Assembly (NCBI RefSeq): GCF_014205015.1 | Contig: NZ_JACHMO010000001.1 | Span: 3,844,001-3,908,000 of the forward strand | Source: Saccharothrix ecbatanensis | GTDB lineage: Bacteria > Actinomycetota > Actinomycetes > Mycobacteriales > Pseudonocardiaceae | Direction: 5' to 3' | DNA: 64,000 nt | Part shown: positions 10,076-31,972 of the stretch, in pieces | Position numbering within the stretch: position 1 is the stretch's first letter | Layout of the letters: each line of letters begins with the position of its first letter | Notes under the pieces: model-generated | Told to the model about the DNA's origin: nothing | Databases searched by the model: none | Seen by the model: the letters and a program-made list of their open reading frames with translations, nothing else | Position numbers and translations under genes: made by a program

Positions 10076-10078
10076 CGA

Positions 10079-12859: not shown

Positions 12860-12882
12860 GCCGGTCTGCCCCGTGCTTGCGG

Positions 12883-13954: not shown

Positions 13955-14773
13955 TCACCGGGTCGGCTCGTGGTTGAGCACCCCGGATTGGAACACCGCC
14001 AGTTCGACGCCGTCGAAGCCCGCCGCCAGCACGACCTCGGTCAGCGCCGGCGCGATTTCCGGCCGGTCGGCCAGGTGCGGGTCGATTTCGACTCGGGCGG
14101 TGTCATCCAGGTCGCGGACGCGGAGGTCTCGGGTTGGTGTGCCGGCGTCGGCGAGCCAGGTGCGGACGGCGACCTCTGCGCGTTCGACCCTGGCCAGGCG
14201 GGCGGGGGTGATGGTGACCCCGTAGCGCACTCTGCTGGCGAGGCAGGGCATGGCTGGTTTGTCCCATGTGGACAGGTTCCAGAGTTGGCTTACCTCACGG
14301 ACGTCGGTCTTGGTCAGTCCGAGGTCGCGTAGTGGTGTGCGGACGCCGATTTCGTCGCCGGCGCGGATGCCGGGGCGGAAGGGGTCGTGTGCGTCGTCGG
14401 CGTTGACGCCGGTCGCCACCGCGGGCAGGCCGTGGTCGCGTGCGGTCTTCGTGATGGTGTCCAGCACGGTGGACTTGCAGAAGTAGCAGCGGTCGCGGCC
14501 GTTGGCGGCGTATGCGGGGTTGTCCAGTTCCGTGGTCGTGGGCGTCAGGTGGCGGACGCCGAGGTGGGCGGCGAACTCGGTGGCGTGGGTGAGTTCGGCG
14601 GTGGCGAGGCTGGCGGAGTCGGCGGTGACGGCGAGCACCGCGTCGGGGCCGAGGGCGCGTGCGGCGGCGGCGAGCACGAGCGCGGAGTCGACGCCGCCGG
14701 AGAAGGCCACGGCGACCGGGCCGATCTCGGTGAGGTGCGCGACGAGCCGGGCGGCGGCGGTGTTGGTGTCCAT
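13955..14773 (-). CDS. larE: ATP-dependent sacrificial sulfur transferase LarE
   Basis: 272-residue PP-loop enzyme (SGGVDS at residues 25-30) of nickel-pincer nucleotide (NPN) biosynthesis. LarE converts the dicarboxylated pyridinium mononucleotide to the dithiocarboxylate. The Lactobacillus plantarum type donates the sulfur of its own Cys176. Here the equivalent Cys177 is present in TWDKPAMPCLASR, so this is the single-cysteine sacrificial form rather than the iron-sulfur form. CYFCK at 96-100 is also typical. Its ATG shares one base with the larC stop (TGATG). It is the last gene of the operon. Confidence 0.93.
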   Translation of the reverse strand: MDTNTAAARLVAHLTEIGPVAVAFSGGVDSALVLAAAARALGPDAVLAVTADSASLATAELTHATEFAAHLGVRHLTPTTTELDNPAYAANGRDRCYFCKSTVLDTITKTARDHGLPAVATGVNADDAHDPFRPGIRAGDEIGVRTPLRDLGLTKTDVREVSQLWNLSTWDKPAMPCLASRVRYGVTITPARLARVERAEVAVRTWLADAGTPTRDLRVRDLDDTARVEIDPHLADRPEIAPALTEVVLAAGFDGVELAVFQSGVLNHEPTR

Positions 14774-15921
14774 CAGTGCTCCTCGGGGCTTTCGGCGGCG
14801 ATGGCGAGCACGGTGCGCAGGGGCAGGCCGGTCTGTCGGGCGACGGTGACGGCGTCGTCGTATTCGGGTTTGCCGTGGTGTGGTCCGTGTTTGCGGCGTA
14901 TCGGCAGGCCGTGGACGTGGACGGTGTCGGTGGTTCGGGGCAGCGCGGTGCGTCGCACGCTGGTCCGCCGCACGCCGAGCGAGCCGGTCTCGGCGAGCAT
15001 CCGCCGTTCGATGTCGTCCGCGGTCTCGGGCGTCGCCAACGCGTGCAGCACGTGCGCGGGCCTGCCCTTTTTCATCGTGGCGGGGATGGTCCAGCTGTCC
15101 AGTGCGCCGGAGTCGAGCAGGTGGGCGACGACGTAGCCGAGGACCTCGCCGGTGACGTCGTCCAGGTTCGTCTCCAGCACCACCAGGTCACGCACGTCCG
15201 CTGTTTCCCGGTCGCCGAGCCGGACGACGGCCACGTTGGGCCGGTCGAACAGGGTCCTGGTGCCGACGCCGTAGCCGGTGGACGCCATGCGCATTTCCGG
15301 CGGCGGGCCGTAGTCGGCGCCGATCGCGCGCAGCAGTGCCGCGGCGGTCGGCGTCACGGTCTCCCCCGACAGGCTCGTGCCGACGACGCGTGCGCCGTGC
15401 AGCAGCGCCGAGGTGGCCGGGGCCGGACAGGGCAGCACGCCGTGGGCCGTGCGGACCGATCCGGCGCCGATCGGCAACGCTTCGCAGTGCACGGTTCGCA
15501 CGTCCAGGGCGTGCAGCGCGGCGGCCACGCCGACGATGTCCACGAGGGTGTCGTGGCCGCCGAGTTCGTGCAGGTGCACCCGGTCGGGGTCTTCGCCGTG
15601 CAGACGGCCCTCGACGTCGGCGATCGCTTGCAGCGCGGCGACCGCGGTGTCCGCCACCGCCCGATCCCGCACGCGGCCGGCCATGGCGATCAGCTCTCCC
15701 GCACTGCGGCTCGTGGCGTCGTCGGTCACCGTCACGACGGCCCGGCTGCCGGTGAGTCCGTGGGTGAGAACCGAAGTGACGGTGAGGTCCCAGCCGGTCA
15801 GTCCGGTGTCGGCCACGGCCGCGCGGATAGCGTCCAGCGGTGCGCCGGCGTCGACCAGCGCGGCCAGCAGCATGTCGCCGGCCAGCCCGGTGAACGGCGA
15901 GATGACGCAGACGCGGCTCAC
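14773..15921 (-). CDS. larC: Nickel insertion protein LarC (nickel pincer cofactor synthase)
   Basis: 382-residue CTP-dependent nickel insertase that completes the NPN cofactor of LarA. The N-terminus ISPFTGLAGDMLLAALVDAG is the hallmark of the family. HLHELGGHDTLVDIVG and ETNLDDVTGEVLGYV are further conserved segments. In L. plantarum the protein is made by a programmed frameshift between larC1 and larC2; here both halves are in one uninterrupted frame. It starts with GTG and overlaps larB by 4 bases (GTGA) and larE by 1 base. Confidence 0.93.
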   Translation of the reverse strand: MSRVCVISPFTGLAGDMLLAALVDAGAPLDAIRAAVADTGLTGWDLTVTSVLTHGLTGSRAVVTVTDDATSRSAGELIAMAGRVRDRAVADTAVAALQAIADVEGRLHGEDPDRVHLHELGGHDTLVDIVGVAAALHALDVRTVHCEALPIGAGSVRTAHGVLPCPAPATSALLHGARVVGTSLSGETVTPTAAALLRAIGADYGPPPEMRMASTGYGVGTRTLFDRPNVAVVRLGDRETADVRDLVVLETNLDDVTGEVLGYVVAHLLDSGALDSWTIPATMKKGRPAHVLHALATPETADDIERRMLAETGSLGVRRTSVRRTALPRTTDTVHVHGLPIRRKHGPHHGKPEYDDAVTVARQTGLPLRTVLAIAAESPEEH

Positions 15922-16604
15922 GGCGTCCGTCCGGCCACGCGGGCGAGCCGGAACGCGGCCATCGCGGCACCGAAGCCCGAGTCGATGTTCACCACCGTGA
16001 TCCCGGCGGCGCAGGACGCGTGCATCGCCAACAAGGCGGTGATGCCCTCGAGACTCGCGCCGTAGCCGGTCGAGGTGGGCACGGCGACCACCGGGCAGTC
16101 GACCAGACCACCGACCGCACTCGCCAAAGCGCCCTCCATCCCCGCCACGACGATCACGGTGTCCGCCGCCCGCAAGCGGTCCTGCTCGGCCAGCAGCCGG
16201 TGCAGACCCGCCACACCCACATCGGTGACAGTCGTGACACCGAGCCCTACAGCGGTGGCAACGGCAGCAGCCTCACGCGCCACGGGCAGGTCCGCCGTGC
16301 CCGCCGCAGCCACCACCACGCCGAACCCGGTCGGCGCGGCCGGACGCCACACCAACAAACGGGCCACGCTGTCGTACGAGCCGCCAGGCACCGCAGCCAG
16401 CACGGACGCCGCCGCATCGGACTCCACGCGCGTGGCCAGCACCGGGCCGTCGTTGTGCCGCAGCAGGGTACGCACGATCGCAACGATCTGGTCAGGTGTC
16501 TTCCCGCTGCCGTAGACCACCTCGGGCAACCCCTGCCGTGCTTCACGATCGACATCCACCCTGGCGAACCCGAGATCGACCGCGTCCGGTCCGGCCATGT
16601 TCAT
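15918..16604 (-). CDS. larB: Pyridinium-3,5-biscarboxylic acid mononucleotide synthase LarB
   Basis: 228-residue PurE-like carboxylase/hydrolase that carries out the first step of NPN cofactor synthesis from nicotinic acid adenine dinucleotide. Recognised by EVVYGSGKT near residue 29, the AIR-carboxylase core VVVAAAGTADLPVAREA, VPTSTGYGASLEG and the conserved Cys in MHASCAAG (Cys198, matching the substrate-binding cysteine of the family). The first ATG (16604) overlaps the kinase stop by 4 bases. A second ATG at 16598 has better spacing (8 bases) from AAGGA and may be the true start. Confidence 0.92.
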   Translation of the reverse strand: MNMAGPDAVDLGFARVDVDREARQGLPEVVYGSGKTPDQIVAIVRTLLRHNDGPVLATRVESDAAASVLAAVPGGSYDSVARLLVWRPAAPTGFGVVVAAAGTADLPVAREAAAVATAVGLGVTTVTDVGVAGLHRLLAEQDRLRAADTVIVVAGMEGALASAVGGLVDCPVVAVPTSTGYGASLEGITALLAMHASCAAGITVVNIDSGFGAAMAAFRLARVAGRTP

Positions 16605-17737
16605 CGTCCTTCCGCGCCGACGATGGGTGCTTGCGTGACGAGTTCGCGCCCGATCGCCGTGAGCAGCGCGGGAGCCTGTCGCATCGCGGTGTCGACGTCG
16701 CCGGTGCGCTCCAGCAGCGACCAGGCGGCGACCACACCGACGTCGCGCAGCCGTTCGGCGGAGAGCCGCACGTCGCCCGCGACCACCACGACCGGCACCC
16801 CGTGCCGCCGTGCCGCCTCGGCCACCCCGATCGGCGCCTTGCCCCGCAGGCTCTGCTCGTCGAACCGACCCTCCCCCACCACAACCAGCGAAGCCTCCCG
16901 CAACGCGTCCTCGACACCGATCTCACGCAGCACGAAGTCAGCCCCGGACGCCCGCCGCGCATCGAGCGCGGCCAACGCCGCGAATCCGATGCCACCGGCC
17001 GCACCCGCACCCGGTTTCCCGCTCACGTCCCGCCCGACCTCCGCCGCCATCACCGCCGCGAACCGGCAGAGCCCTCGCTCCAACACCTCCACGTCCCCCG
17101 CCGTCGCACCCTTTTGCGGCGCGAACACCACGGCGGCACCGTTCGGCCCGATCAGCGGATTGTCCACATCGGACGCCAACGTCACCCGCGCGAGCGCCAA
17201 CCTCGGGTCCAGCCCCGACAGGTCCACGCACGCCGCGCCGACCAACGCCTCGCCGCCAGGTCCGACCGGCTCACCCGAGGCACCGGTGATGCGCGCGCCC
17301 AAAGCACGCAGCAGACCCGCACCCCCATCCGTCGTGGCACTACCGCCCACGGCGAGAACGAGATCGCGACAGCCGCGGTCCAGCGCGGCACGGATCAGCT
17401 CACCGGTGCCGAAGGTGTCCGCCGTCAACGGCGCCAACCGGCCACCGGGCAGCACGTCCAACCCGCTGGCCTGCGCCATCTCGATCACCGCACGTTCACC
17501 GCGCACGGCTAACGCGGCCCGCACCGGTTCCCCCGTCGGACCGGAGACCTCGACCCGCACCTCGTCGTAGCCGGCACGCACCAACGCCGCCACGGTGCCC
17601 TCGCCGCCATCGGCGACGGGCATCGCCACCGCCCGACCGCCCGCGTCCGTTATGCCCTCGCTTACCGCCGAACAAGCCCGCTCAGCGGTGAGCGAACCCC
17701 GGAACTTGTCCAGGCACACCAGGACCGTCCCGTTCAC
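16601..17737 (-). CDS. Glycerate kinase
   Basis: Predicted 378-residue enzyme of the GlxK/GarK type that phosphorylates D-glycerate with ATP, normally to 2-phosphoglycerate. Motifs seen are LDKFRGSLTA at the N-terminus, PVADGGEGT near residue 45 and GGSATTDGGAG in the middle. The GTG at 17737 is chosen over an upstream ATG at 17791: GGAGGGG lies 8 bases before it and it overlaps the larA stop by exactly 4 bases (GTGA). Finding a glycerate kinase between larA and larB is unusual. It suggests that the racemase, or the pathway in this operon, produces glycerate. Confidence 0.9.
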   Translation of the reverse strand: MNGTVLVCLDKFRGSLTAERACSAVSEGITDAGGRAVAMPVADGGEGTVAALVRAGYDEVRVEVSGPTGEPVRAALAVRGERAVIEMAQASGLDVLPGGRLAPLTADTFGTGELIRAALDRGCRDLVLAVGGSATTDGGAGLLRALGARITGASGEPVGPGGEALVGAACVDLSGLDPRLALARVTLASDVDNPLIGPNGAAVVFAPQKGATAGDVEVLERGLCRFAAVMAAEVGRDVSGKPGAGAAGGIGFAALAALDARRASGADFVLREIGVEDALREASLVVVGEGRFDEQSLRGKAPIGVAEAARRHGVPVVVVAGDVRLSAERLRDVGVVAAWSLLERTGDVDTAMRQAPALLTAIGRELVTQAPIVGAEGR

Positions 17738-19017
17738 CGAAGGGTCCCCTCCACATAGGGGATGGTCTGTGGCCCTTCGGGCAGGACACACAGCCGGGCA
17801 TCCGGCCCAGCCGCCGCGAGAGCCTCCGCCACCGTCGCCGAAACGTCCGCGGTCTGCTCCAGATGCGCGGTGGCCAACTCGGCGTCGCTAAGATGGGAGG
17901 TGTGCATGACGACCCGGCACTCGGCCTGGATACGCGCCTGGATCTGCACCTGCCACTGATCGGGCACCGTCACCTCACGGGCGGAGATCTCAGCGAACAA
18001 CGCCGCCGGCGAATCAGCGGACGCCAACACCTCGCGGTACGACCCGTGGTCGGGGAAGCCGTCGCGGCACTCGGCCGCGCACACGATCACCCCACCCGGC
18101 TTCACCACCTGGTAAGCGGCCGACATGCCCTTCACCGCCTGGTAGAGGTTCTGGTCCAGCGGATAGCCGGAGTTCGTGGTCACCACCACGTCGAACAACC
18201 ACGGCACGGGCCTCATCGCCACCTCACGCGCGGTACGCACCGCCGCCGCGTGCATGCCAAGCAGGTCACCGCCGAACGCGGCGACCACCTGCTTGTCCTG
18301 GTCCAGCACCACGTCGAACCCGAACGTCACCCCCGTGGCAGCCGCGATCGCACGCACGTCGTCGTGCACCGGATTGCCCTCCACGATCCCCCACGCCGCC
18401 CGCGGATCACCGATCCGGCGCGCGTCGTGCAGCACGAGCACCGTCTCCAACGCCGCCAGACCCGGCGCGACCAACTTCGGCCCACCCGAGAACCCCGCGA
18501 AGAAATGCGGCTCCACGAAACCGGTCGTGATGCACACATCCGCGTCAACCCACTCGCTGTTGAGCCACACCGGCACACCCGCGCCGAACTCCCCCATCCA
18601 CGTCAGGCTGCTCCGATCGCGGGCGTCGTGGTTGACGATCCGCACCGAATCGACCACCTCGTCACCGAACATCCGACGCAACTCAGCCCCCGAGTTACCC
18701 CGATGCGTCCCGGTAGCCACCAACACCACGACGTCGGCCAGATCGACCAGACCGTCCAGTTCCTCCAAGATCGCCGGGATCATCAACTCCCGAGGCTGCG
18801 GACGCGTCCCGTCACACGCCGAGATCGCCACCGTCTGACCACGACGCACACGATCCCGCAACGGCGGCCCGGCAACCGGCGCGCGCAACGCCCGACGCAG
18901 GATCTCCCGGGGTGCTTCGGTGGCCCGGTGGTGCCGGGGCGTCACCACCGTGGTCAACGCCGGATCAACCCGCAGATCCAACCCCGTCTCGCCGTAAGCC
19001 AGCCGCACCGTGTCCAT
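17734..19017 (-). CDS. larA: LarA-family nickel-dependent hydroxyacid racemase
   Basis: 427-residue cytoplasmic racemase of the lactate racemase superfamily, which uses a Lys-linked nickel-pincer nucleotide to move hydride at the alpha carbon of 2-hydroxyacids. The key residues of L. plantarum LarA are all present with identical spacing: His105 (ATGTHR; His108 there), His171 and Lys181 in HFFAGFSGGPK (His174, Lys184), and His197 (VLVLH; His200). DGTRP near residue 69 is also conserved. The superfamily includes lactate, malate, phenyllactate and gluconate-type enzymes, so the substrate cannot be fixed by sequence. The operon context points to L-lactate and/or L-glycerate released by L-fucose or L-galactose breakdown. 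The ATG shares one base with the lactonase stop. Confidence 0.93.
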   Translation of the reverse strand: MDTVRLAYGETGLDLRVDPALTTVVTPRHHRATEAPREILRRALRAPVAGPPLRDRVRRGQTVAISACDGTRPQPRELMIPAILEELDGLVDLADVVVLVATGTHRGNSGAELRRMFGDEVVDSVRIVNHDARDRSSLTWMGEFGAGVPVWLNSEWVDADVCITTGFVEPHFFAGFSGGPKLVAPGLAALETVLVLHDARRIGDPRAAWGIVEGNPVHDDVRAIAAATGVTFGFDVVLDQDKQVVAAFGGDLLGMHAAAVRTAREVAMRPVPWLFDVVVTTNSGYPLDQNLYQAVKGMSAAYQVVKPGGVIVCAAECRDGFPDHGSYREVLASADSPAALFAEISAREVTVPDQWQVQIQARIQAECRVVMHTSHLSDAELATAHLEQTADVSATVAEALAAAGPDARLCVLPEGPQTIPYVEGTLR

Positions 19018-19877
19018 CAGTCCGTCCCCAACCCGTAGACACGAGCAGCCGTGCCACCGAAGACCAAGTCGCGCTCAGCGGTCGTCAGGCTTTCGGTCGT
19101 CTGCTCGGCGGTGTCGATGACCTGCTCGTAGGAGGCGGCAAGCAGGCAGACCGGCCAATCAGAGCCGACCATGAGCCGATCCGGACCGAACGCCTCCAGC
19201 GCCACGTCGACATACGGCCGCAGATCCGCCACGGTCCACCGCACCCAATCCGCCTCGGTCACCAGACCGGACAGCTTCGCGACCACGTTCGGTTCGTCGG
19301 CCAGCTCGGACAGGTGGGTCGCCCACGGCTCGACGGTCCGACCCGCGATGTCCGGCTTGGACAAGTGATCCAGCACGAACACCAGATCCGGCACCGCCCG
19401 CACCACTTCCAGCGCGACCGTCAGTTGATGCGGCCGGGTCAACAAGTCATAGACAAGACCGGCATCACGCACCGCACGCAACCCGGCCACCACGTCGGCA
19501 CGTGTCAACCACTCCGGGTCCGGCTCGGCCTGCACCAAATGCCGGATGCCGACCAGCCGCTCACCGCCGGGTCCGGAGCGGAGCCGGTCCAACTGCTCGG
19601 CGACGTCGGGCGCGGTCAGATCCACCCACCCCACGACACCCGCGATCAGGTCGGATCCCGCTGCCAACGCGAGGAACTCCACCGTCTCCTCAAGGTTGGC
19701 GAGGACCTGGACCAGGACCGTGGCGTCCACCCCGGACGGCCCGGTCACCAGACGCAGGTCCGCCTCGTCGAAGTCACGTCGGATCGGCGCCATGTGCCAC
19801 CCGTCGAGCCAGTCCTCATGCCGGGGGGCGAGGTTCCAGAGGTGGTGGTGGGCGTCGATCCGGTGCATCGTGGTCAC
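19017..19877 (-). CDS. Amidohydrolase-family sugar lactonase (L-fucono-1,5-lactonase type)
   Basis: 286-residue TIM-barrel hydrolase of the COG3618 group. The N-terminal metal motif RIDAHHHLWN, the mid-protein DHLSKPDI and the C-terminal GSDWPV (catalytic Asp) are visible. Members hydrolyse sugar lactones such as L-fucono- and L-rhamnono-lactone in non-phosphorylating pathways. It overlaps the FAH-family gene upstream by 4 bases and larA by 1 base. Together with the aldo/keto reductase it would turn L-fucose into L-fuconate. Confidence 0.85.
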   Translation of the reverse strand: MTTMHRIDAHHHLWNLAPRHEDWLDGWHMAPIRRDFDEADLRLVTGPSGVDATVLVQVLANLEETVEFLALAAGSDLIAGVVGWVDLTAPDVAEQLDRLRSGPGGERLVGIRHLVQAEPDPEWLTRADVVAGLRAVRDAGLVYDLLTRPHQLTVALEVVRAVPDLVFVLDHLSKPDIAGRTVEPWATHLSELADEPNVVAKLSGLVTEADWVRWTVADLRPYVDVALEAFGPDRLMVGSDWPVCLLAASYEQVIDTAEQTTESLTTAERDLVFGGTAARVYGLGTD

Positions 19878-20725
19878 GCTTGCCCGATCCGGTGCCGCTG
19901 CACGCCCAAGCGGTCGACGGCGACCTCGACCGTGTCACCTTCACGCAGGTAGCCGAAGTCGTTGGCGCCGAGCGCCACGCCCGCGGGTGTGCCGGTGTTC
20001 ACCACGTCACCGGGCTCCAGCACCATGAACTGGCTGAGGTACCAGATGATGTGGTGCACGCCGAACAGCATGTTCGCCGTGTTGCCGTCCTGCCGCGGCT
20101 GTCCGTTGACGCTCAGCCTCAACCTCAGTGCCTGCGGGTCGCCCACCTCGTCGGCGGTGACCAGCCACGGCCCCAACGGGTTGAACGTCTCGCAGGACTT
20201 GCCCTTGGTCCACTGGCCGCCCCGGTGGAGCTGGAAGTCGCGTTCGCTGACGTCGTCGGAGATCGCATAGCCCGCGATCACCGCCGCCGCGTCCTGCGGG
20301 CTGTCCAGGTAGCGCGCGGTGCCGCCCAGCACGACGGCCAGCTCCACCTCGTAGTCGGTGCTCACGCTTGTCCTGGGCACCAGCACGGTGTCGTCAGGTC
20401 CGACGATCGTGTTGGTGGCCTTCATGAACACCACCGGCTCGGCCGGTGGTTCCGCCCGGGTTTCGGCCGCGTGGTCAGAGTAGTTGAGGCCGATGCACAC
20501 CAGGGCACCCGGGCGGGAGACCGGCGCGCCGATCCGCATTCCCGTGATGTCCATCGCCGGCAGGTCACCGCCGGTGAGGGCGTCGCGCACCCGCGACACA
20601 CCGCCGTCGGCCAGGAAGTCACCGCCGATCCCACTCGTGATGGGCCGTAGGTCACGCGCGTGACCGGACTCGTCCAGCACCACGGGAACCTCGGATCCGG
20701 GGTCGCCCACTCGCAACAGTCGCAT
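19874..20725 (-). CDS. FAH-family hydrolase, candidate 2,4-diketo-3-deoxy-L-fuconate hydrolase
   Basis: 283-residue fumarylacetoacetate-hydrolase-fold enzyme. Metal ligands are expected in DYEVELAVVLGG, and the family signatures CIGLNYSDHAAE and NTGTPAGV are clear. In the non-phosphorylating L-fucose (and L-rhamnose) pathway such enzymes cleave the 2,4-diketo acid to pyruvate plus L-lactate; an L-galactose-derived substrate would give L-glycerate. It lies 38 bases after the aldo/keto reductase gene and overlaps the lactonase gene. Another FAH activity, such as acylpyruvate hydrolase, cannot be excluded from sequence alone. Confidence 0.82.
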   Translation of the reverse strand: MRLLRVGDPGSEVPVVLDESGHARDLRPITSGIGGDFLADGGVSRVRDALTGGDLPAMDITGMRIGAPVSRPGALVCIGLNYSDHAAETRAEPPAEPVVFMKATNTIVGPDDTVLVPRTSVSTDYEVELAVVLGGTARYLDSPQDAAAVIAGYAISDDVSERDFQLHRGGQWTKGKSCETFNPLGPWLVTADEVGDPQALRLRLSVNGQPRQDGNTANMLFGVHHIIWYLSQFMVLEPGDVVNTGTPAGVALGANDFGYLREGDTVEVAVDRLGVQRHRIGQA

Positions 20726-20763
20726 TGTCGTTCCTCATTCGTTCGAGTCTTGTCTGTTCCTGA

Positions 20764-21762
20764 TCACGGAGTCGGCACGTCGGCCGCGAGCAGTCCTTCG
20801 TCGCGCAGTTCTGCCCACAGCCCAGGGGGAGGTGGCGCGGCGAGCGCCGCGACGTTCACGCGGATCTCGGCTTCGGTACGGGCTCCGACGACCGCGCCGG
20901 TTACCGCCGGGTGTCCGAAGGGAAACCACAGCGCCGCGGTCGGCAGTGTCGTGCCGTGCCGTGCGCAGACCGCGGCGATCCGCCGAGCGCGGTCGATCAC
21001 GTCCTCCGGCGCCGCCCGATAGTCATGCGTGGCGTCGTCCGGCACCTCGTGGCGGGCCAGCAGGCCGGAGTTGAACACCCCGGCGGCGACGACGTCCACC
21101 CCGCGCTTCGCGCACAGCGGCAGGAACTCGGCCAACGCGGGCTGTTCCAGCAACGTGTAGCGGCCCGCGAGCATGACGACGTCCACATCGGACTCGCGCA
21201 CGAACCGCGCGGGCAGCTGCCACTGGTTCATGCCGACACCGACCGCGCTGATCACTCCCTGCTCGCGCAGCTCCACCAGCGCGGGCACCGCTTCACCCAC
21301 CGCTTGTTCCCAGTGGTCGTCCGGGTCGTGCAGGTAGACCACGTCCACCCGGTCGAGCCCGAGGCGTTCCAACGAGGACTCCAGGCTCCTCAGCACGCCG
21401 GCCGCGCTGAAGTCCCACACTCGGCGGCAAGATGTCGTGACGGCGAAGCCCTCCGTGTCCCGCCGCTCTCCGGCCGGATCGGGCACCAGCAACCGTCCCA
21501 CCTTGGTGGACAGCGTGAACTCCGAGCGCGGGCGGCCCGCCAGGGCGGCCCCGAGACGGCGTTCGGAGAGTCCCAGCCCGTAGTGCGGAGCGGTGTCGAA
21601 GGTCCGGACGCCGGCCTCCCACGCGGCGTCGACCACCGCGCGGGACTGGCTGTCGGTCACCTCGGTGTAGAGGTTGCCCAGCGCGGCGGCTCCGTACCCC
21701 AGCCTGGACACGGGGTTCTTGTCGCGGGCGGTCCGTTCGGCGGCCATCGTTGTTCGATCCAC
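20764..21762 (-). CDS. Aldo/keto reductase, L-fucose (D-threo-aldose) 1-dehydrogenase type
   Basis: 332-residue NAD(P)-dependent TIM-barrel enzyme. The catalytic tetrad is visible as Asp and Tyr in FDTAPHYG, Lys in STKVG and His in VYLHDPDD. The GLSERRLG context is typical of D-threo-aldose/L-fucose dehydrogenases, which oxidise C1 of L-fucose or related sugars to the lactone. The start is uncertain: GTG at 21762 lies 4 bases after the SDR stop, and an ATG at 21747 is also possible; neither has a strong ribosome binding site. It is the first oxidative step of the inferred pathway. Confidence 0.85.
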   Translation of the reverse strand: MDRTTMAAERTARDKNPVSRLGYGAAALGNLYTEVTDSQSRAVVDAAWEAGVRTFDTAPHYGLGLSERRLGAALAGRPRSEFTLSTKVGRLLVPDPAGERRDTEGFAVTTSCRRVWDFSAAGVLRSLESSLERLGLDRVDVVYLHDPDDHWEQAVGEAVPALVELREQGVISAVGVGMNQWQLPARFVRESDVDVVMLAGRYTLLEQPALAEFLPLCAKRGVDVVAAGVFNSGLLARHEVPDDATHDYRAAPEDVIDRARRIAAVCARHGTTLPTAALWFPFGHPAVTGAVVGARTEAEIRVNVAALAAPPPPGLWAELRDEGLLAADVPTP

Positions 21763-21766
21763 GGCG

Positions 21767-22519
21767 TCAGGCGCCCGGACGCAACCGGAGGCCGTCCATG
21801 CCGCCGTCGACGGCGAGCACCGTCCCGGTGGTCGAGCCCGACAGGGGGCTCGCGAGGAACGCGATCGCCGCGGCGATCTCCTCCGCGCGGACCAGTCGGC
21901 CGTGCGGTTGCCTGGCCTCCAGCGCCGCGCGCTCGGCCACGGGGTCCGGTGCCGAGTCGAGCAGCCTCCGCACCCACGGGGTGTCCGCGGTGCCGGGGGC
22001 GACGGCGTTCACCCGGACACCCTCACGGATGTGGTCGGCGGCGAGCGCGCGGGTCAGCGCGTGCACCGCGCCCTTGCTCGCCGTGTAGACCGCCCGCTGC
22101 GGCAGGCCCGCGGTCCCCGCGATCGAGCCGGTGTTCACGATGGCGGCGGCGCGCGAGTTGCGGAGGTGGGGAAGGCAGGTGCGGGCGACCCTGGCCATCC
22201 CGAACACGTTGACGTCGAACACCCTGAGCCACTCGTCGTCGGTGGCGGCGGTGACGTCGCCCTGTGCCCCGATCCCCGCGTTGTTCACCACCACGTCGAG
22301 GCCGCCGAACTGCTCGACGACCGCCTCCACGGCGTCGCGGACGCTCTGGTCGTCCGTGACGTCCGTGCGCACGAACAACATGTCGCCGGGGAGGTCACTC
22401 GCCGCCAAGTCGAGCACGGCGACCCGCGCACCGCGGTGGGACAGCAGTTCGGCCGTGCTCCGGCCGATCCCCGAGCCACCACCGGTGACCAGTGCCACCA
22501 GTCCGTCGAAGTCACCCAT
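21767..22519 (-). CDS. SDR-family dehydrogenase, candidate 2-keto-3-deoxy-L-fuconate dehydrogenase
   Basis: 250-residue Rossmann-fold oxidoreductase with TGGGSGIG, NNAGIG, the catalytic Ser of NTGSIAG and YTASK, and the C-terminal VDGGMDGLR. In the pathway it would oxidise C4 of 2-keto-3-deoxy-L-fuconate to the 2,4-diketo acid. The ATG at 22519 (MGDFDG) is preferred because GGAG sits 9 bases before it; an upstream ATG at 22534 would place that site inside the gene. It is the first gene of the nine-gene minus-strand operon, and the 138 bases upstream (22520-22657) must contain its promoter unless it is read through from the GntR gene. Confidence 0.83.
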   Translation of the reverse strand: MGDFDGLVALVTGGGSGIGRSTAELLSHRGARVAVLDLAASDLPGDMLFVRTDVTDDQSVRDAVEAVVEQFGGLDVVVNNAGIGAQGDVTAATDDEWLRVFDVNVFGMARVARTCLPHLRNSRAAAIVNTGSIAGTAGLPQRAVYTASKGAVHALTRALAADHIREGVRVNAVAPGTADTPWVRRLLDSAPDPVAERAALEARQPHGRLVRAEEIAAAIAFLASPLSGSTTGTVLAVDGGMDGLRLRPGA

Positions 22520-22657
22520 GGTCGATCGCTCCATTCGTTCACGTGCGTGACGGTGTGATCCACTAACCCGGATCTGGCGTATTCATCGCAGGCTTCGCGG
22601 GCACCTGGCCGGCGAAGTCGTACGCCAACCGGTGCTCGGCATCAACGCTGCCGGGGC

Positions 22658-23425
22658 CTAACGTTCCAGGCGGCCGGGGTCTCCGGCGTCGCTACGACGC
22701 ACCAGCCACGCCTCGGTGATGTGGGTGAACATGGCTTCGGCGGCGCCGGTCGGGTCGTGTGCCGCGATCCGCTCGTAGATGTGGCGGTGCCCTTGGTTGG
22801 AGGCCACGCAAAGGTCGCGTTCGCTTCTGCCCATGTAGCGGGCGGTGTTGATGACCTGGCTCTCCAGGGATCGCACGACGCCACGGGCGATCCGGTTGCC
22901 CGACGCCTGCATGATCGTGTCGTGGAAGATCCCGTCCTGCTTGCGATAAGCGACCGGGTCGTCCACAAGTTGGTCCATGAGGTCCACGAGAGCACCCAGC
23001 CGGTCGACGGTGTCCTGCTCGGCGGCACGGGCGGCGACCTGGGCCATGTCCGACTCGAGCAGCCGGCGGGTGACCACCAGGTCGTCCAGGACGCTCAGGG
23101 TCTCGTCCTGGGCGATGACGGCCCCGAGGACGAGTTCGTCGAGCATGTTCCACATCGACGGCGGGGTGACCACCGTGCCCGCGCCCTGCCGGACCTGGAC
23201 CAGCCCCTTGGCCTGGAGTGCCTTCACCGCTTCCCGGATGACGGTCCGGCTCACCGAGAACATCTCGCACAGCGCGGGCTCGGGCGGCAACGACGTCCCC
23301 GAGGGGTGAACGCCGCGCGCGATGCGTTCCACGAGCTCGACTGCGACCGCGGTGGCCAGGTTCGCCGGCCGACGCACCCAGTTCGGGGTGGTGGGCGCGC
23401 TCGCACTCGGTTGCTGTGCCGCCAT
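22658..23425 (-). CDS. GntR-family regulator (FadR/FCD), probable repressor of the fucose locus
   Basis: Predicted 255-residue transcription factor. The winged helix shows SLPPEPALCEMFSVSRTVIREAVKALQAKGLV followed by RQGAGTVV, and the FCD domain has VTRRLLESDMAQVAARAA and DGIFHDTIMQASGN. The ATG at 23425 is supported by GGAGGG 5 bases upstream; a longer frame to 23476 has none. It lies between the catabolic operon (same strand) and the divergent transporter operon. A palindrome at 23493-23507 in the intergenic region is the likely operator. The effector is expected to be a sugar acid or keto acid of the pathway. Confidence 0.88.
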   Translation of the reverse strand: MAAQQPSASAPTTPNWVRRPANLATAVAVELVERIARGVHPSGTSLPPEPALCEMFSVSRTVIREAVKALQAKGLVQVRQGAGTVVTPPSMWNMLDELVLGAVIAQDETLSVLDDLVVTRRLLESDMAQVAARAAEQDTVDRLGALVDLMDQLVDDPVAYRKQDGIFHDTIMQASGNRIARGVVRSLESQVINTARYMGRSERDLCVASNQGHRHIYERIAAHDPTGAAEAMFTHITEAWLVRRSDAGDPGRLER

Positions 23426-23491
23426 CGTTCCCTCCGGTTGCGCCCGAGACCACGCGCCTCGGACGTGGATCAGCATAGCAAAAAGGACGCG

Positions 23492-23581: not shown

Positions 23582-24853
23582 ATGAAGCAGCGCACACTAT
23601 GGTCTGCTGCCCTGGTCGTGGGGTTGACGTTGACCGCCGGTTGCGGCAGCGCCGCAGGACCGAATTCCCAGTCCGGAGACTCGGGCAACAAGCTTGTGGT
23701 CTGGGACTGGAAGTCCGGTGACGAGAACGCGGCCCGCTACGTGGAGAAGGCCAAGGCCGATTTCGCCAAGAAGCACTCCGACATCGAGGTCGAGTTCGTA
23801 GCCCAACCGTTCGACCAGTACTACACCTTGCTCGGCGCGGCGATCCAGGCCGGCAAGGGGCCCGACGTCATCCTCTTCAACGGCGGCGGCCAGATCCGCG
23901 ACAGGGTCGACGCGCTGGCCCCACTGGACACCTACATCGCCGAGGACAAGCAGCGGCTGGCCGGCTGGGACGCGTTCACCAAGGACGGGAAAGCCTACGC
24001 GGCACCGGTCACCCTCCAGGGCCATCCCTTGTACTACAACAAGGCGCTCTACGAGACGGCCGGGCTGGACCAGGACTCTCCGGCCAAGACCTGGGACGAC
24101 TTCGTCAAGGACTGCGGCGTCATCACCGAGAAGACCGGCGCGAAGTGCTTGGCGCTGGGCAACAAGGAGGGCATCGGCATCCAGTTCTTCCTGTCGGCCT
24201 TCGGATCGGCGACCCTGACCCCGCAGGAGTACGACGACTGGATCGCCGGGAAGCGGAACTGGTCCTCGCCGGACGTGAAGCGGATCTTCGAGCTCTGGAA
24301 GCAGGCGAACGACGCCGGTCTGAACACCGACGGCGCCAACTCCACCGCGATGTTCAACGACGCGTTCGCGGCGTTCCAGTCCACCAAGGCCGCGAACGTC
24401 ATCGGTCTGATGTCCGATGTCGGGCACTGGAAGGACTTCACCGAGTTCCTCGGTTCGGACACGGTCGGCGTCATGGACGCGCCCCTGGTCAACCCCGCGG
24501 CGACGCCGAGCCTCCCGTACGACGGCGGGATCGGTTACGGGGTCGCGAAGTGGACCAAGGACCCGGAGGTCGCCGCAGACCTGGTGCGGTCCCTGACCTC
24601 CACCGACGCCCTGAGCGCCTTCTACGCCGATGGTGGCGCGATCGCGTCCGACACCACGATCGACCTCTCCTCGGGCGGCCCGGCCGTCCAGACGATCGTC
24701 TCGGAGGTCAAGACCGGCAAGCCCGCCCTGCACGTCGCGCTGCCGTCCAAGACGGTCGACCTGATGGGGCGGCTCTCGCAGCAGCTGCTCAGCGGCTCGA
24801 TCACCGTGGACGAGGTCGTCGCGCAGTTGGCCGCTTCCGACAAGACGGGCTGA
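23582..24853 (+). CDS. Sugar ABC transporter substrate-binding lipoprotein (fucose locus)
   Basis: 423-residue extracellular lipoprotein. The signal peptide ends in the lipobox LTAGC with Cys21. The SBP family 1 fold shows KLVVWDWKSGDE near residue 37 and GKGPDVILFNGGG near residue 97. It is the first gene of a plus-strand operon with two permeases, an enolase-superfamily dehydratase and a mutarotase, so it probably captures L-fucose or a fucosylated oligosaccharide. The gene is divergent from the GntR regulator gene. Confidence 0.9.
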   Translation: MKQRTLWSAALVVGLTLTAGCGSAAGPNSQSGDSGNKLVVWDWKSGDENAARYVEKAKADFAKKHSDIEVEFVAQPFDQYYTLLGAAIQAGKGPDVILFNGGGQIRDRVDALAPLDTYIAEDKQRLAGWDAFTKDGKAYAAPVTLQGHPLYYNKALYETAGLDQDSPAKTWDDFVKDCGVITEKTGAKCLALGNKEGIGIQFFLSAFGSATLTPQEYDDWIAGKRNWSSPDVKRIFELWKQANDAGLNTDGANSTAMFNDAFAAFQSTKAANVIGLMSDVGHWKDFTEFLGSDTVGVMDAPLVNPAATPSLPYDGGIGYGVAKWTKDPEVAADLVRSLTSTDALSAFYADGGAIASDTTIDLSSGGPAVQTIVSEVKTGKPALHVALPSKTVDLMGRLSQQLLSGSITVDEVVAQLAASDKTG

Positions 24854-24858
24854 TCAGC

Positions 24859-25845
24859 GTGACCGGACGTTCTCCGTCCCCGGTCGGCCCGGCTTCGGCC
24901 GGGCCGACCGGGGGTGCCACCATCACCGCCCCGCCACGCCGACCGCAACCGGCCCGGCCGTCGCCACCGCGCAACCGCCGCGGGCCGGGGGCCGAGCGCC
25001 TGGCCCCGTTCGTCCTGCTGGCCCCGGCTGTGCTGATCATCGTCGTGCTGCGGCTGTGGCCGCTGCTGCTCGGCGTCAACTTCTCCTTCACCGGTGACGG
25101 CGACCGCAACGGCATGTGGGTCGGTCTGGCCAACTACCTGACCTTGCTGGACGATCCGCTGTTCCGCACCGCGCTGCGCAACGTGGGCCTGCTCGTGCTG
25201 CTGCTCCCGGTGGCGGTGGCGATCCCCGGACTGCTCGCCACGTTCATCTACCTGAAGGTGCCCGGGAACCGGTTCTACCGGGCCGTCTACTTCTTCCCGG
25301 CCGTGCTCTCCCCGGTAATCGTCGGGGCGATCTTCAACCTGCTGCTCGCCTACGACGGCCCGCTCAACGCGGCCCTCGGCGCGGTGGGCCTCGGCCCGGT
25401 GGACTGGCTCGGCGATCCCGACGTGGCGATCTTCGCTGTTGTCGGCGTGCACATCTGGGCGACGTTCGGCATGGCGCTGGTCGTCTTCCTCGCCGGGTTC
25501 TCCACCCTCGACCCCTCGCTGCTGGACGCCGCCAAGGTCGACGGCGCGACGCTGCCGCAAACCATCCGGCACGTGATCATCCCGAGCCTGTCCCGCACCA
25601 TCCAGTTCGTCTTCGTGACCACCATGATCGGCATGCTGACGTCGATGTTCGGTCTGCTGTTCGTGATGACCGGCGGCGGACCCGAGGGCTCCACCTACCT
25701 GCCCGAGTACTACATCTGGGTCCAACAAGGACAGTTCAACCAGCCCGCGCTCGCGTCCGCGGCGTCGACCGCGCTGTTCCTGATCATGCTCGTCGTAGGG
25801 TTGGCCCAGATCGCCGTCCTGCGCCGCGCGGGCAAGGAGGAATGA
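24859..25845 (+). CDS. Carbohydrate ABC transporter permease, MalF type (fucose locus)
   Basis: 328-residue membrane protein. A Pro-rich, basic N-terminal stretch of about 45 residues precedes the first membrane helix (LAPFVLLAPAVLIIVVL). The EAA loop reads DAAKVDGATLPQTIRHVIIPSL. The GTG at 24859 lies 5 bases after the binding-protein stop; the frame is open further upstream but that part lies inside the preceding gene. Its stop overlaps the start of the MalG-type gene. Confidence 0.88.
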   Translation: MTGRSPSPVGPASAGPTGGATITAPPRRPQPARPSPPRNRRGPGAERLAPFVLLAPAVLIIVVLRLWPLLLGVNFSFTGDGDRNGMWVGLANYLTLLDDPLFRTALRNVGLLVLLLPVAVAIPGLLATFIYLKVPGNRFYRAVYFFPAVLSPVIVGAIFNLLLAYDGPLNAALGAVGLGPVDWLGDPDVAIFAVVGVHIWATFGMALVVFLAGFSTLDPSLLDAAKVDGATLPQTIRHVIIPSLSRTIQFVFVTTMIGMLTSMFGLLFVMTGGGPEGSTYLPEYYIWVQQGQFNQPALASAASTALFLIMLVVGLAQIAVLRRAGKEE

Positions 25846-26672
25846 TGTCCGGCACACGGTTGGCGAAGTGGGTCGTCGCCGTCCCGATGGCCGCGCTCGC
25901 GCTGGCCACGATCTACCCGCTGGTCTTCACCACCAACGTCGCCATGAAGACCCGGCGCGAGTACATCCTCGACCGGTTCTCGCTGTCCGACTCGCTGCAC
26001 TGGGACAACATCGTCAAGGCGTGGACGAGCGTCGGAATGTCCCGGTACTTCCTGAACTCGGTGATCGTCGTGGCGTGCTCGGTCGCGCTGCTGTTGCTGC
26101 TCGGGTCGATGGCCGGCTTCGCACTCGCCCGGCTGCGCTTCCGCGGCTCGTCCACCCTCTTCCTGGGCATCCTCGCCGCGCTGTTCGTCCCGTTCCAGGT
26201 GATCATGGTTCCGCTGGCGCGAATCATGGGCGACACCGGCCTCATCGACACCTACCCGGGGCTCGTCCTCGCCTATGTGGCGCAGTTCCTCCCGTTCACG
26301 ATCTTCCTGATGACCAGTTTCTACTCGACCGTGCCGCCGGAGATCGTCGACGCCGCGCGCATCGACGGCAACACCGTGTACGGGGTCTACTGGCGGATCA
26401 TGCTCCCGATGGGTACGCCGGCGCTGTTGTCGGTCGGTGTGCTCAACGCCCTGTTCTGCTGGAACGACGTGCTCATCTCCCTGCTCATGATGCCGTCTTC
26501 TGAGAACCGCACGCTCATGGTCGGTGTCACCTCGTTGCGCGGTCAGTACTCCGACGACATCCCGACGTTCGCCTCCGGCGTGTTGATCGCCGCGGTGCCC
26601 GTCCTGCTCGTCTACCTGTTCCTGCAACGCCAGATCGCCGACGGCGTCACCGCCGGGGCCACGAAGGGCTGA
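25845..26672 (+). CDS. Carbohydrate ABC transporter permease, MalG type (fucose locus)
   Basis: 275-residue membrane permease. The first helix is at about residues 9-28 (VVAVPMAALALATIYPLVF). The EAA loop reads DAARIDGNTVYGVYWRIMLPM and the C-terminus is GVTAGATKG. AAGGAGG at 25834-25840 serves the second of two adjacent ATGs (25845), which shares one base with the upstream stop. It needs an ATPase encoded outside the window, as do the other two transporters here. Confidence 0.9.
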   Translation: MSGTRLAKWVVAVPMAALALATIYPLVFTTNVAMKTRREYILDRFSLSDSLHWDNIVKAWTSVGMSRYFLNSVIVVACSVALLLLLGSMAGFALARLRFRGSSTLFLGILAALFVPFQVIMVPLARIMGDTGLIDTYPGLVLAYVAQFLPFTIFLMTSFYSTVPPEIVDAARIDGNTVYGVYWRIMLPMGTPALLSVGVLNALFCWNDVLISLLMMPSSENRTLMVGVTSLRGQYSDDIPTFASGVLIAAVPVLLVYLFLQRQIADGVTAGATKG

Positions 26673-26673
26673 C

Positions 26674-27855
26674 ATGCGCATCACCGGTTACCGGACCCTC
26701 ACCACGGTCCAGGACTGGGGCCGGCCGGTCGGCGACGCCAACGGCGTCTTCGCCGACGGCCTCATCCGGGTTCCGTTCGTCGTCGTCGAGACCGACGAGG
26801 GCATCACCGGCGTCGGGCTCGGACCACACGTGGAGATCGACTCGGTCTTCGCCGCTTTGGAGGGCGAAGACCCTCGCGGTGTCACGTCCCTCTACGACAG
26901 GATGCTGCGCCAGGTGTTCAAGGCGGGCCACGCGGGCGCGGTGTTCGGCACCATCGGCGCCCTCGACACCGCGCTGTGGGACATCAAGGCGCAGATCGCC
27001 GGCGAACCGCTGTGGCGACTGCTCGGCGGACGCGACCGCCGCGTACCCGCCTACGCCTCGGGGCTGGACATCGCGTTGGACGACGACGACCTCGTTGCGC
27101 TGTACCAGACCTACGCCGACCGCGGACTACGCTCGGCGAAGCTCAAGGGCGGCCTCGACGTCGAGCGCGACCGGCACCGTCTCACCCTGGTCCGCGACGT
27201 CCTCACCGACGCCGGCCACGGGACACGACCGGGCCTGATGCTCGACGTCAACGAGACCTGGACGCGCAAGCAGGCCGTCCGCCACGTCAGCGAACTCGAG
27301 CGAACCGTGGACCTGACCTGGATCGAGGAGCCCGTCCGGCGGTGGGACGCGCAAGGCCACGCGGTCGTCAGCAGTGGCGTGCGCGCGTCGGTCGCGACCG
27401 GGGAGAACCTCACCGGGCTCGAACAGTTCCGCCCGCTCATCGCGGCCGGAGCGGTCGACGTCGTGCAGACGGCCGCGGTCTGGGGCATCACCCACTTCCT
27501 GCGGGTGTCCGCCCTCGCACATGCCCACGAGCTTCCGGTCAGCCCCATCGGCACCACACCGGTCGGCCTGTTGCACGCCGCGACCTCGGTGCCCAACCAC
27601 CTGGTCAGTGAGCTGCAAGACCTCCGGCCACCGCTGGGGGTCTCCGTCGACCACCACGTCGAGGACGGCGCGTACCTCCTCGGCGACCGCCCCGGCCTGG
27701 GCATCCGCCTCGACGAAGAGGCGATCGCCGCGGCCCACCGTCGACTCCCCGATCCGAGGTCCGGCGGCACCCACATCCGACCGGAACGCGCCGGACACCG
27801 CCTGCACCCCGTCGAGGCGGGCAGCGAACAGAAGAGCCCCGCTCTCAACGCGTGA
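26674..27855 (+). CDS. Enolase-superfamily sugar-acid dehydratase, candidate L-fuconate dehydratase
   Basis: 393-residue cytoplasmic enzyme, the only dehydratase candidate for the pathway. It would convert L-fuconate to 2-keto-3-deoxy-L-fuconate. Visible are the KxK base motif (Lys156 and Lys158 in SAKLKGG) and metal ligands in LMLDVNETW (Asp191), WIEEP (Glu219) and TGEN (Glu244). Where mandelate-racemase-group enzymes normally carry the second base as a Pro-His pair, this protein reads VSPIG (Ile292), so the His appears to be missing. It starts 1 base after the MalG-type stop. About 40 extra hydrophilic residues at the C-terminus are unusual. Another sugar acid (L-galactonate, D-arabinonate) is possible. 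Confidence 0.8.
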   Translation: MRITGYRTLTTVQDWGRPVGDANGVFADGLIRVPFVVVETDEGITGVGLGPHVEIDSVFAALEGEDPRGVTSLYDRMLRQVFKAGHAGAVFGTIGALDTALWDIKAQIAGEPLWRLLGGRDRRVPAYASGLDIALDDDDLVALYQTYADRGLRSAKLKGGLDVERDRHRLTLVRDVLTDAGHGTRPGLMLDVNETWTRKQAVRHVSELERTVDLTWIEEPVRRWDAQGHAVVSSGVRASVATGENLTGLEQFRPLIAAGAVDVVQTAAVWGITHFLRVSALAHAHELPVSPIGTTPVGLLHAATSVPNHLVSELQDLRPPLGVSVDHHVEDGAYLLGDRPGLGIRLDEEAIAAAHRRLPDPRSGGTHIRPERAGHRLHPVEAGSEQKSPALNA

Positions 27856-27909: not shown

Positions 27910-28275
27910 ATGGACCGCCCACAGCGCTACGGCATGGTGATCCGGCTACGCCCGGACCGACGCGAGGAATACCTGCGGCTGCACGCCGCGGTGTGGCCCT
28001 CCGTCGAGCGGATGCTGCTCGACGCCAACATCCGCAACTTCAGCATTTTCCTGCACGACGACCTGCTCTTCGGCTACTACGAGTACATCGGCGACGACCA
28101 CGACGCCGACCAGGCCCGCATCGCCGCCGACTCCGAGACGCAGCGCTGGTGGGCCTTGACCGAACCTTGCCAGGAGTCCTTGGACGCACCCGACTCCGGC
28201 GGCGCCGGGTGGGCGCCAATGCGGGAGATCTGGCACCTGACCGGACAACCAGGCGGGGGTCCGTCCGCCAGTTGA
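27910..28275 (+). CDS. L-rhamnose/L-fucose mutarotase family protein (RhaM-like)
   Basis: 121-residue protein of the COG3254 family, whose members are about 105-115 residues and interconvert the alpha and beta anomers of L-rhamnose or L-fucose. It shows the family start RYGMVIRLRPDRREEYLRLH, the core NIRNFSIFLHDDLLFGYYEY and the tryptophan pair in TQRWWAL. GAGGAG lies 7 bases before the ATG. Homologues occur in L-fucose gene clusters such as that of Xanthomonas campestris, which fits the remaining pathway genes. It is the last gene of the plus-strand operon. Confidence 0.9.
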   Translation: MDRPQRYGMVIRLRPDRREEYLRLHAAVWPSVERMLLDANIRNFSIFLHDDLLFGYYEYIGDDHDADQARIAADSETQRWWALTEPCQESLDAPDSGGAGWAPMREIWHLTGQPGGGPSAS

Positions 28276-31800: not shown

Positions 31801-31972
31801 GCGACGTGATCGTCCCGGGGTTGTCATCCTTGCCCGTGGGTGAAACGTAGTAGGTCGCCTGAGCGGCGGCCGAAGCCGGCGTGTAGGCCGAGGATCCCAT
31901 GAGGTAGAGCCCGATCATGGCTATGGCCAGCGCTACTGACAGCGCCCGTCTGGGGAGAAATGGTGACGTCAC
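28844..31972 (-). CDS. Secreted GH141-like beta-helix glycosidase with C-terminal ricin-type lectin domain
   Basis: Predicted 1042-residue exported enzyme. A signal peptide ends near residue 36. The beta-helix catalytic part (about residues 40-720) starts YYVSPTGKDDNPGTITSPF and has DSGTNGYRVLYSAYPNETP, paralogous to the protein encoded at 5748-8093. A beta-sandwich module of about 150 residues follows (TRVTYNAGGTWSNW ... THTIKVVCKGTKN). The last about 140 residues are a ricin/CBM13 beta-trefoil with three repeats (NKNSGKVADVVDAST, SRRSGKLLDVSGAST, NVNSGKVLDVSEAST). GH141 contains an alpha-L-fucosidase, so the gene may supply L-fucose to the adjacent catabolic locus; this is inference. It starts with GTG after AGGAGAGG at 7 bases. 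Confidence 0.78.
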   Translation of the reverse strand: MTSPFLPRRALSVALAIAMIGLYLMGSSAYTPASAAAQATYYVSPTGKDDNPGTITSPFRTVQRARDVVRTVNSDMTGDIQVYLRGGNYPVTSTIEFTPRDSGTNGYRVLYSAYPNETPVLNAGVQVPGWTQHSGNVWKAPLNRANKLRALYVNDKRAHMATKTINSAGCHGTYTVTAGQAAWAWESGSECDGAKYSLTDLPAVANNHSDLEIETRTTWSTAIVGVREVTTTGDGANRVALFQQPGAAIAQGAAYAPFQPGGSHKFMNAYEFLDTPGEFYFDRAGKTVYYYKADSDNMSTATVWAPNNVATVLKVAGTSTTGHVRNLTFSGLTVEHSDWNLTEVAGSVFKQSTQGSTAAHSYGQKNFHHYFYRNVDIAPGIVQVENADGIVLERNTVQHTGADGISLLNDVTDSRVIGNRTNDIGGSAITVGHPQHVYIGDYTTTNREKYPVGVEGVVKNIEIKNNYLYDTAVLFNAHSPVSAYFVDSVTVQHNVIEKTPWAGITLGWGWWNFDGSSGSIVPDKPTTTARNNNVSYNHIIDTMQRLSDSAPVYTLGSQPGTTISNNYIQGVPGGHKYGLHPDEGSAFITYQNNVLNVDPNLRYTINSGNWGRQHDLKMTQIYGTVNKIFEKNVPNSTIEDVLAYENNVWPSAAYRIAAESGIEPAYRNILPGNRPVTPDHVLPASVFNDGRTSSIPIRSTGDASRTIWLAPAGTTTFAVGSTMTKAAGNATSIAIPEALGDYRLYVVDAQGNRSAESKSVVRQQWTRVDDKDTRVTYNAGGTWSNWDDSRDFRGSESYTSRAGDHAEYTFTGTSVQYLGMKQSNMGKVDVYLDGTLVQSDIDAYSSTTTKQAVLFEKSDLSVATHTIKVVCKGTKNTASTGTVCAVDAFFSVGVGDPGASYKIVNKNSGKVADVVDASTSDGAKVHQWDYLWGYRSAANQQWSFGSAGVRDFEIASRRSGKLLDVSGASTADGATVIQWTDQNGANQRWQLVDGGNGYTKIKNVNSGKVLDVSEASTASGAQLVQNTDTSANSQLWQILRVN

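Follow-up and report, generated by a model that had tools for sequence, protein, structure and literature searches.

Why should a nickel-pincer racemase and a glycerate kinase be encoded inside a sugar catabolic operon? The question is raised by a stretch of 64,000 nucleotides, here called the window, from the genome of Saccharothrix ecbatanensis (9.69 Mb, single contig), in which the racemase gene larA and the cofactor genes larB, larC and larE flank a glycerate kinase (GK) gene and follow four candidate sugar-degrading genes. We regard it as rather likely that the locus is a non-phosphorylating operon of route 3 type for L-fucose, and probably also for L-galactose, the C6-hydroxylated analogue of that sugar, with a built-in racemase module for its end products. 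Nine co-oriented open reading frames (ORFs) occupy positions 13955-22534 of the minus strand. In the direction of transcription they encode a short-chain dehydrogenase/reductase (SDR, 21767..22534), an aldo/keto reductase (AKR, 20764..21762), a FAH-family hydrolase (19874..20725), an amidohydrolase lactonase (19017..19877), LarA (17734..19017), GK (16601..17737), LarB (15918..16604), LarC (14773..15921) and LarE (13955..14773). An earlier note on this DNA had given the same nine genes in the same order, and this was confirmed, with all ORFs present and the families assigned by profile scores. Its further claim, that every junction from the FAH gene onward overlaps by 1 or 4 bases, also holds: intervals of +4 and +38 bases between SDR, AKR and FAH genes are followed by overlaps of -4 (to the lactonase), -1 (LarA), -4 (GK), -4 (LarB), -4 (LarC) and -1 (LarE). 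The GK start was placed at a GTG at 17737, giving a 4-base overlap with the larA stop; the first in-frame start in the ORF list is 17791. The first in-frame ATG of the SDR frame is at 22534, and the end coordinate 22519 of the earlier note fits the second one. The nine-gene string is presumably co-transcribed. A GntR/FCD regulator (22658..23476, minus strand; PF00392 and PF07729) lies directly upstream and is likely the operon regulator.

The pathway that we propose would begin with oxidation of the sugar by the AKR and opening of the lactone by the lactonase. An MR/MLE enzyme from a divergent arm would dehydrate the sugar acid, and the SDR would oxidise C4. The FAH enzyme would then split the 2,4-diketo acid into pyruvate and a 2-hydroxy acid, which would be L-lactate in the case of L-fucose and L-glycerate in that of L-galactose, as the C5 configuration is retained in the cleavage of both sugars. 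LarB, LarC and LarE would make the nickel-pincer cofactor for LarA, which would interconvert the L and D forms of these 2-hydroxy acids. Glycerate kinase converts D-glycerate to 2-phosphoglycerate, and the lar-linked enzyme would in this way draw D-glycerate into lower glycolysis. We infer the sugar, the hydroxy-acid substrates and the direction of flux; the sequence that leads from L-galactose via L-glycerate and D-glycerate to phosphoglycerate can be soundly inferred. To the wider proposal, that larA-GK-larBCE is a portable L-glycerate salvage module completing L-galactose catabolism and the first natural role of glycerate racemisation by LarA, we give an even chance.

LarA scored 545.9 bits against NF033504, with a cut-off of 460. 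Direct alignment to solved LarA sequences revealed the catalytic and cofactor residues R72, H105, H171, K181, H197, Q293 and K296; the reference residues in LarA1 are the two catalytic His H108 and H174, the Lys K184 and His H200 that bind the nickel-pincer nucleotide (NPN), and R75. The pocket consists of F172, F173, W355 and Q356 and conforms to the signature F, F, W, E/Q described for the lactate-racemase group (PMC11770544). According to the available text of that paper, every lactate racemase tested racemises glycerate, LarA-group enzymes are promiscuous on short 2-hydroxy acids, and LarAH43 reached 114e3 M-1 s-1 on glycerate versus 83e3 on L-lactate, with Gln359 proposed as the cause of this preference; the physiological meaning of glycerate racemisation is there left to be determined. 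The earlier note had presented glycerate racemisation as new to the LarA superfamily. We rejected this claim, for the activity has been in print since 2024 (PMC11770544). The window LarA is accordingly most aptly described as a putative lactate/glycerate racemase.

The nickel-pincer gene set is complete, and LarB, LarC and LarE each exceed curated cut-offs. LarB scored 259.6 against NF033503 (cut-off 175) and LarE 282.7 against TIGR00268 (cut-off 150). LarC, with its LarC1 and LarC2 regions in a single frame, scored 160.2 against TIGR00299 (cut-off 90), 122 against NF052512 (cut-off 50) and 363 bits against PF01969. The GK, a member of PF02595, scored 371.3 bits against TIGR00045 (cut-off 168.45; scored on the frame from 17791), and its best solved structure is the putative glycerate kinase 3cwc with 255.7 bits. 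The closest solved structure to the window LarA by sequence is LarAIp (9eia, 272.8 bits), which is presumably from Isosphaera pallida. LarAIp has the same Trp-Gln pair at the C-terminal positions of the pocket and has L-glycerate among its better substrates, as described in the available part of PMC11851776; it differs by Leu-Met where the window LarA has Phe-Phe, and by a broader pocket. LarAH43 of Enterocloster asparagiformis, compared by description, shares the lactate-racemase group and Gln at the 359 position; it racemises glycerate and lactate in vitro, and members of the group otherwise differ little in their pockets (PMC11770544). Unlike LarAH43, the physiological role of which is undetermined in the same source, the window larA lies in a sugar operon with a GK gene. 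The lactate racemase of Lactiplantibacillus plantarum (5huq/6c1w/8ezf) shares the family, the catalytic and NPN-binding residues and the requirement for LarB/C/E, but has Thr359 in place of Gln. Its LarE is of the sacrificial single-Cys type, whereas the window LarE carries the cysteines C96, C99 and C177, matching the CXXC-C motif that typifies the [4Fe-4S] LarE in the available text of PMC9283937.

The published route 3 for L-fucose employs FucM, FucA, FucB, FucC, FucF and FucG and yields pyruvate and L-lactate (PMC11199699, in part). The window shares with it a candidate gene for each step, across two divergent arms, as well as a clustered ABC transporter and regulator and the expected products, pyruvate and an L-2-hydroxy acid. 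It adds larA, larB, larC, larE and GK. The AKR is the candidate L-fucose/L-galactose 1-dehydrogenase (FucA-like): L-galactose dehydrogenases take the top five places among solved sequences (8scc, 119.7 bits), and no NCBIfam model reached its cut-off. The lactonase, a FucB-like candidate that we presume to be COG3618-type, matched a sole model, L-fucono-1,5-lactonase NF052480, at 236.1 of 400 bits, below the cut-off. Its best solved structure is 4dlf, which we take to be the Burkholderia L-fucono-lactonase. For the MR/MLE enzyme (26674..27855, plus strand; PF13378 and PF02746), candidate L-fuconate/L-galactonate dehydratase (FucC-like), no dehydratase NCBIfam model scored above its cut-off, and known L-fuconate dehydratases match it weakly (2hne, 70.5 bits). 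The FAH protein, a candidate 2,4-diketo-3-deoxy-sugar-acid hydrolase (FucG/LRA6-like), reached 299.5 of 500 bits with its nearest model NF053535, again below the cut-off; its best solved structure is the L-2,4-diketo-3-deoxyrhamnonate hydrolase 8gsr with 236.4 bits. The candidate L-fucose mutarotase (FucM-like; 27910..28275, plus strand) belongs to the RhaM family, with 100.4 bits to PF05336, over the cut-off, and 47.6 of 99.6 to TIGR02625, below it.

The SDR (Pfam adh_short_C2) is the candidate L-2-keto-3-deoxyfuconate/galactonate 4-dehydrogenase (FucF-like). It aligned to 8y11, the L-2-keto-3-deoxyfuconate (L-KDF) 4-dehydrogenase (L-KDFDH), with 140.3 bits, fifth among solved SDR chains, with other chains scoring equal or higher (4dqx, 188.7 bits). 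Equivalents of R148, T183 and R214 are kept, R192 is replaced by Leu in an ungapped alignment, and W252 by Met. In each of the 27 SDR rows with a readable DGG motif (of 29 rows, contig duplicates included), the next residue is Met. In the published L-KDFDH, W252 contacts the C6 methyl of L-KDF, and kcat/Km is 1480 on L-2-keto-3-deoxygalactonate versus 7900 min-1 mM-1 on L-KDF (PMC11199699, in part). The change at W252 in the window SDR is compatible with a substrate bearing a C6 hydroxyl and proves nothing. A COG0667 AKR dehydrogenase that takes D-arabinose, L-fucose and L-galactose has been described (PMC6336799).

A second operon, L030, was found in the source genome, and its larA is 97% identical to that of the window. 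It shares the order lactonase-larA-GK-larB-larC-larE. The SDR gene is on the opposite strand there, with MR/MLE and ABC sugar transporter genes (RbsB-like, RbsA-like and permease) on the same side, and larE is followed by genes for a RhaM mutarotase and a GntR protein. The DNA from lactonase to larE is 91.6% identical over 5,949 bases (L030:8875-14789 versus window 13923-19861), and identity in this block climbs to 99.7-100% at window 15025-14426. Over 756-base pieces, the FAH genes of L030 and the window are 76.7% and the AKR genes 66.5% identical. The simplest reading is that recent gene conversion or copying has made the lar-GK block alike in these two paralogous sugar operons. About 1.4 kb past the L030 larE there is a gene for a GH29 alpha-L-fucosidase that carries a ricin-type lectin domain.

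The related-locus search gave 55 loci, which together with the window and 19 fetched stretches make 75 rows. Fourteen rows were excluded, namely nine same-contig duplicates, four fragments (L046, L047, L048 and L102) and the distant L101, so that the LarA tree comprises 61 rows, 60 of them scorable (L045 unscored). Positions of the lar genes in relatives were taken from tblastn because simple GC-frame gene calls gave wrong frames at some loci. Directly after larA, GK was found in 14 of the 60 loci (within 33 bases), larB in 19 (within 454 bases) and neither in 27. Of the four sugar genes (lactonase, FAH, AKR and SDR), three or more are present, wherever they lie in the locus, in 11 of the 14 larA-GK loci, 10 of the 19 larA-larB loci and none of the 27 loci of the third class; contig ends truncate some of the loci. 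The gene order is not chance, because it recurs in related genomes, and the conservation on which the earlier note had staked its reading is indeed seen. On the LarA tree, GK presence needs four changes, two of them forced by starred branches.

The class with neither gene comes from Modestobacter, Pseudonocardia, Kribbella, some Saccharothrix and others. No sugar gene was found at the set identity in 23 of its 27 loci, and lactonase only in the other four; larC or larE is nearby in a few, and one Kribbella locus has a GH29 alpha-L-fucosidase gene directly before larA. The LarAs of Modestobacter and kin (L078, L079, L082, L084-L089, L091, L097, L100 and L103) are 73-75% identical to the window LarA, and tblastn detected no relative of larB/C/E, GK or lactonase in the examined stretch of these loci. 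A phosphotriesterase-family protein is encoded beside larA in L086. At L049:13405-15381 (Nocardia sp.), larC appears in two tblastn pieces with starts about 1.5 kb apart, as if split by an insertion.

A phylogenetic tree was also constructed from 29 GKs. All 14 lar-linked GKs fall on one side of a branch with 99% SH-aLRT and the 15 others, including two more from the source genome, on the other side; these 15 were picked by hand, and the tree shows separateness from that sample only. The lar-linked GKs come from Saccharothrix, Lentzea, Solihabitans, Nocardia sp., Kitasatospora, Streptomyces and further genomes of the same genus as the window. It is a quick tree with long-branch warnings among the others, in which L047 was included and a 59-residue piece of L057 excluded. 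The relatives G010, G013, G019 and G001 have a GK of 443-456 bits, the best in the source genome being 371. The fetched operon of G010 and G013 is without a lar-linked GK, and their 443-456-bit enzyme is a possible substitute kinase.

Linkage of larA and GK was further examined beyond these loci. A LarA scan of 396 Actinomycetota genomes gave 71 with a match and 15 over the cut-off. GK was searched in 49 larA genomes (the source genome, 14 relatives with a close LarA, and 34 of the other 70) and was present in 37. It adjoins larA in seven of the 15 own and close-relative genomes, all of them Pseudonocardiaceae, the family of the window; in one of the seven, G019, larA is represented solely by a fragment at the end of a contig. 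From another class, of Clostridia type, 291 genomes were sampled, 44 of which have LarA over the cut-off and 28 of these also GK. Within 5 kb of larA, GK was found in two of the 44, with about 0.14 expected (rough Poisson P 0.009, kinship and contig breaks ignored). Both GK-linked LarAs of this class have the residues F-F-W-Q. In one of the loci (L123:3493-9260), genes for GK, an MGH1-like glycosidase and enolase stand in a row divergent from larA; the row looks like a glycerate-to-phosphoenolpyruvate cluster, and a glycoside could supply its GK with D-glycerate directly. In the other locus, larA and GK are separated by a DUF4838 gene. The two loci hint at a second, independent glycerate link. 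A general larA-GK linkage across bacteria was considered and is unsupported, with seven of 49 actinomycete and two of 44 Clostridia-type genomes.

Several findings weigh against the proposal that LarA feeds the kinase in a route for L-fucose and L-galactose. Adjacency of larA and GK, for which the earlier note had suggested searching actinobacterial genomes, is seen among close relatives and in none of 34 actinomycete genomes at a greater distance, many of them drafts whose contig breaks could conceal a linkage. The pocket is no discriminator, because the full-length LarAs of the 75 rows, except the distant L101, are all F-F-W-Q with or without GK. Gln occupies the 359 position in all 61 actinomycete LarAs of the tree whatever the context. 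Among 40 Clostridia-type LarAs the position is E in 18, Q in 13, C in seven, T in one and M in one (40 of 46 matches; the two GK-linked ones were read separately and four stand outside the count). Q alone is therefore weak evidence, and Gln359 was rejected as a diagnostic of glycerate specificity. LarAIp also has Q, with a broad spectrum (PMC11851776, in part). Moreover, the sugar enzymes are below curated equivalog cut-offs or without a model over its cut-off. In 19 of the 60 loci larA is followed by larB without GK, and 10 of these 19 hold three or more of the four sugar genes; LarA therefore cannot serve only to feed GK. The earlier note's picture of an L-fucose-type operon joined to LarB/C/E, LarA and GK stands in gene content and order, and its core idea is plausible; a strict reading, in which LarA would serve the kinase exclusively, fails. 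Where GK is absent, LarA probably acts on lactate, or on glycerate with a kinase encoded elsewhere.

A role for LarA mainly in converting L-lactate to D-lactate for a D-lactate dehydrogenase, with the GK taking D-glycerate from other sources such as D-altronate-type acids or glycosyl-glycerates and having no need of LarA, we consider unlikely. It would fit the fucose-type operons that keep larA without GK, the fucosidase-family genes near both operons of the source genome, and the glycosidase beside the Clostridia-type GK. The two FMN-dehydrogenases of the genome, scanned in their matched part, scored 244 and 185 of 550; because both are below the LldD cut-off, an L-lactate dehydrogenase of LldD type is not established (LutABC and D-lactate dehydrogenases were not searched), which also suits such a role. 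Against it, the GK gene of the window sits between larA and larB and overlaps each by 4 bases, and it has the same position in the second operon. This placement is likewise found in records of Pseudonocardiaceae and Streptomycetaceae, where the kinase forms its own clade, and lactate is no substrate of glycerate kinase.

L-rhamnose instead of L-fucose or L-galactose is still less probable as the sugar. The same cleavage would give pyruvate and L-lactate, the FAH enzyme is nearest to the LRA6 structure 8gsr, and the mutarotase family takes its name from L-rhamnose. However, FucG and LRA6 are described as close in phylogeny and as sharing one diketo acid as substrate (PMC11199699, in part). The only model matched by the lactonase and the solved relatives of the AKR point to L-fucose and L-galactose, as do the GH29 genes near the second operon and before the Kribbella larA. 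That LarA acts on another 2-hydroxy acid (malate, 2-hydroxybutyrate or gluconate) and sits in the operon for regulatory convenience is highly improbable in spite of the promiscuity of its group, as the window LarA lacks the signatures that PMC11770544 reports for malate, hydroxyglutarate and gluconate, and malate and gluconate racemase readings were rejected on model scores under the cut-offs (malate models NF052593 and NF052595, 316 and 291 against 500 and 462).

The proposed L-fucose/L-galactose operon is completed by a divergent plus-strand arm (23582-28275), absent from the earlier note, which encodes an ABC transporter, the enolase-superfamily MR/MLE enzyme and the RhaM mutarotase and belongs with the operon by gene content. 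Its transporter consists of a sugar solute-binding protein (23582..24853; PF01547, 102 bits, over the cut-off) and two permeases with BPD_transp_1 domains at 24145..25845 and 25842..26672. The listed frame of the first permease is over-long, with its domain in the C-terminal part and the true start nearer 24900. Relatives have an MR/MLE gene, the part of the arm that was traced, in the corresponding place, and likewise the GntR gene that separates the two arms. A regulator 73-84% identical adjoins the window-type operon in relatives, and their MR/MLE at the matching place shows 28-30% tblastn identity to the other MR/MLE of the window. A GH141-like beta-helix protein with a ricin-type lectin domain (28844..31972, minus strand; PF21231 GH141_M and PF14200) is a possible alpha-L-fucosidase feeding the operon, as the GH141 family includes alpha-L-fucosidases.

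Other genes surround the operon. Downstream of larE, the minus strand at 5748-13686 encodes a GntR protein, the second MR/MLE enzyme, a solute-binding protein, two ABC permeases and a GH141-like protein, and this may be a separate sugar-acid cluster. At 32892-34430 a recombinase zinc beta ribbon protein (PF13408) was found, possibly a mobile-element serine recombinase beside the fucose cluster. Genes for plant-polymer degradation (GH6, GH3, GH26, GH9, GH36 and GH127, three with CBM2) are densely arrayed at 38046-57790.

A natural pathway for glycerate racemisation was not found by word-match searches of one library of papers, one of which missed PMC11770544. For lactate racemase together with L-fucose, the L-fucose in the available text of PMC11851776 is a crystallisation additive. 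The same cleavage logic as proposed here is met in mammals. Degradation of L-galactose to L-lactate and glycerate was reportedly described by Chan in 1979, in a work cited by PMC13406643 and known by its title, which speaks of neither a racemase nor a linked kinase. The remaining interest of the operon lies in a natural pathway for glycerate racemisation and its lar-linked kinase, in an operon that recurs in related genera. It would give a natural role to an activity described in vitro, with the substrate made and used within the same gene string, and it suggests a fate for the L-glycerate formed from L-galactose. It also places the nickel-pincer cofactor in the sugar catabolism of actinomycetes, which is presumably aerobic.

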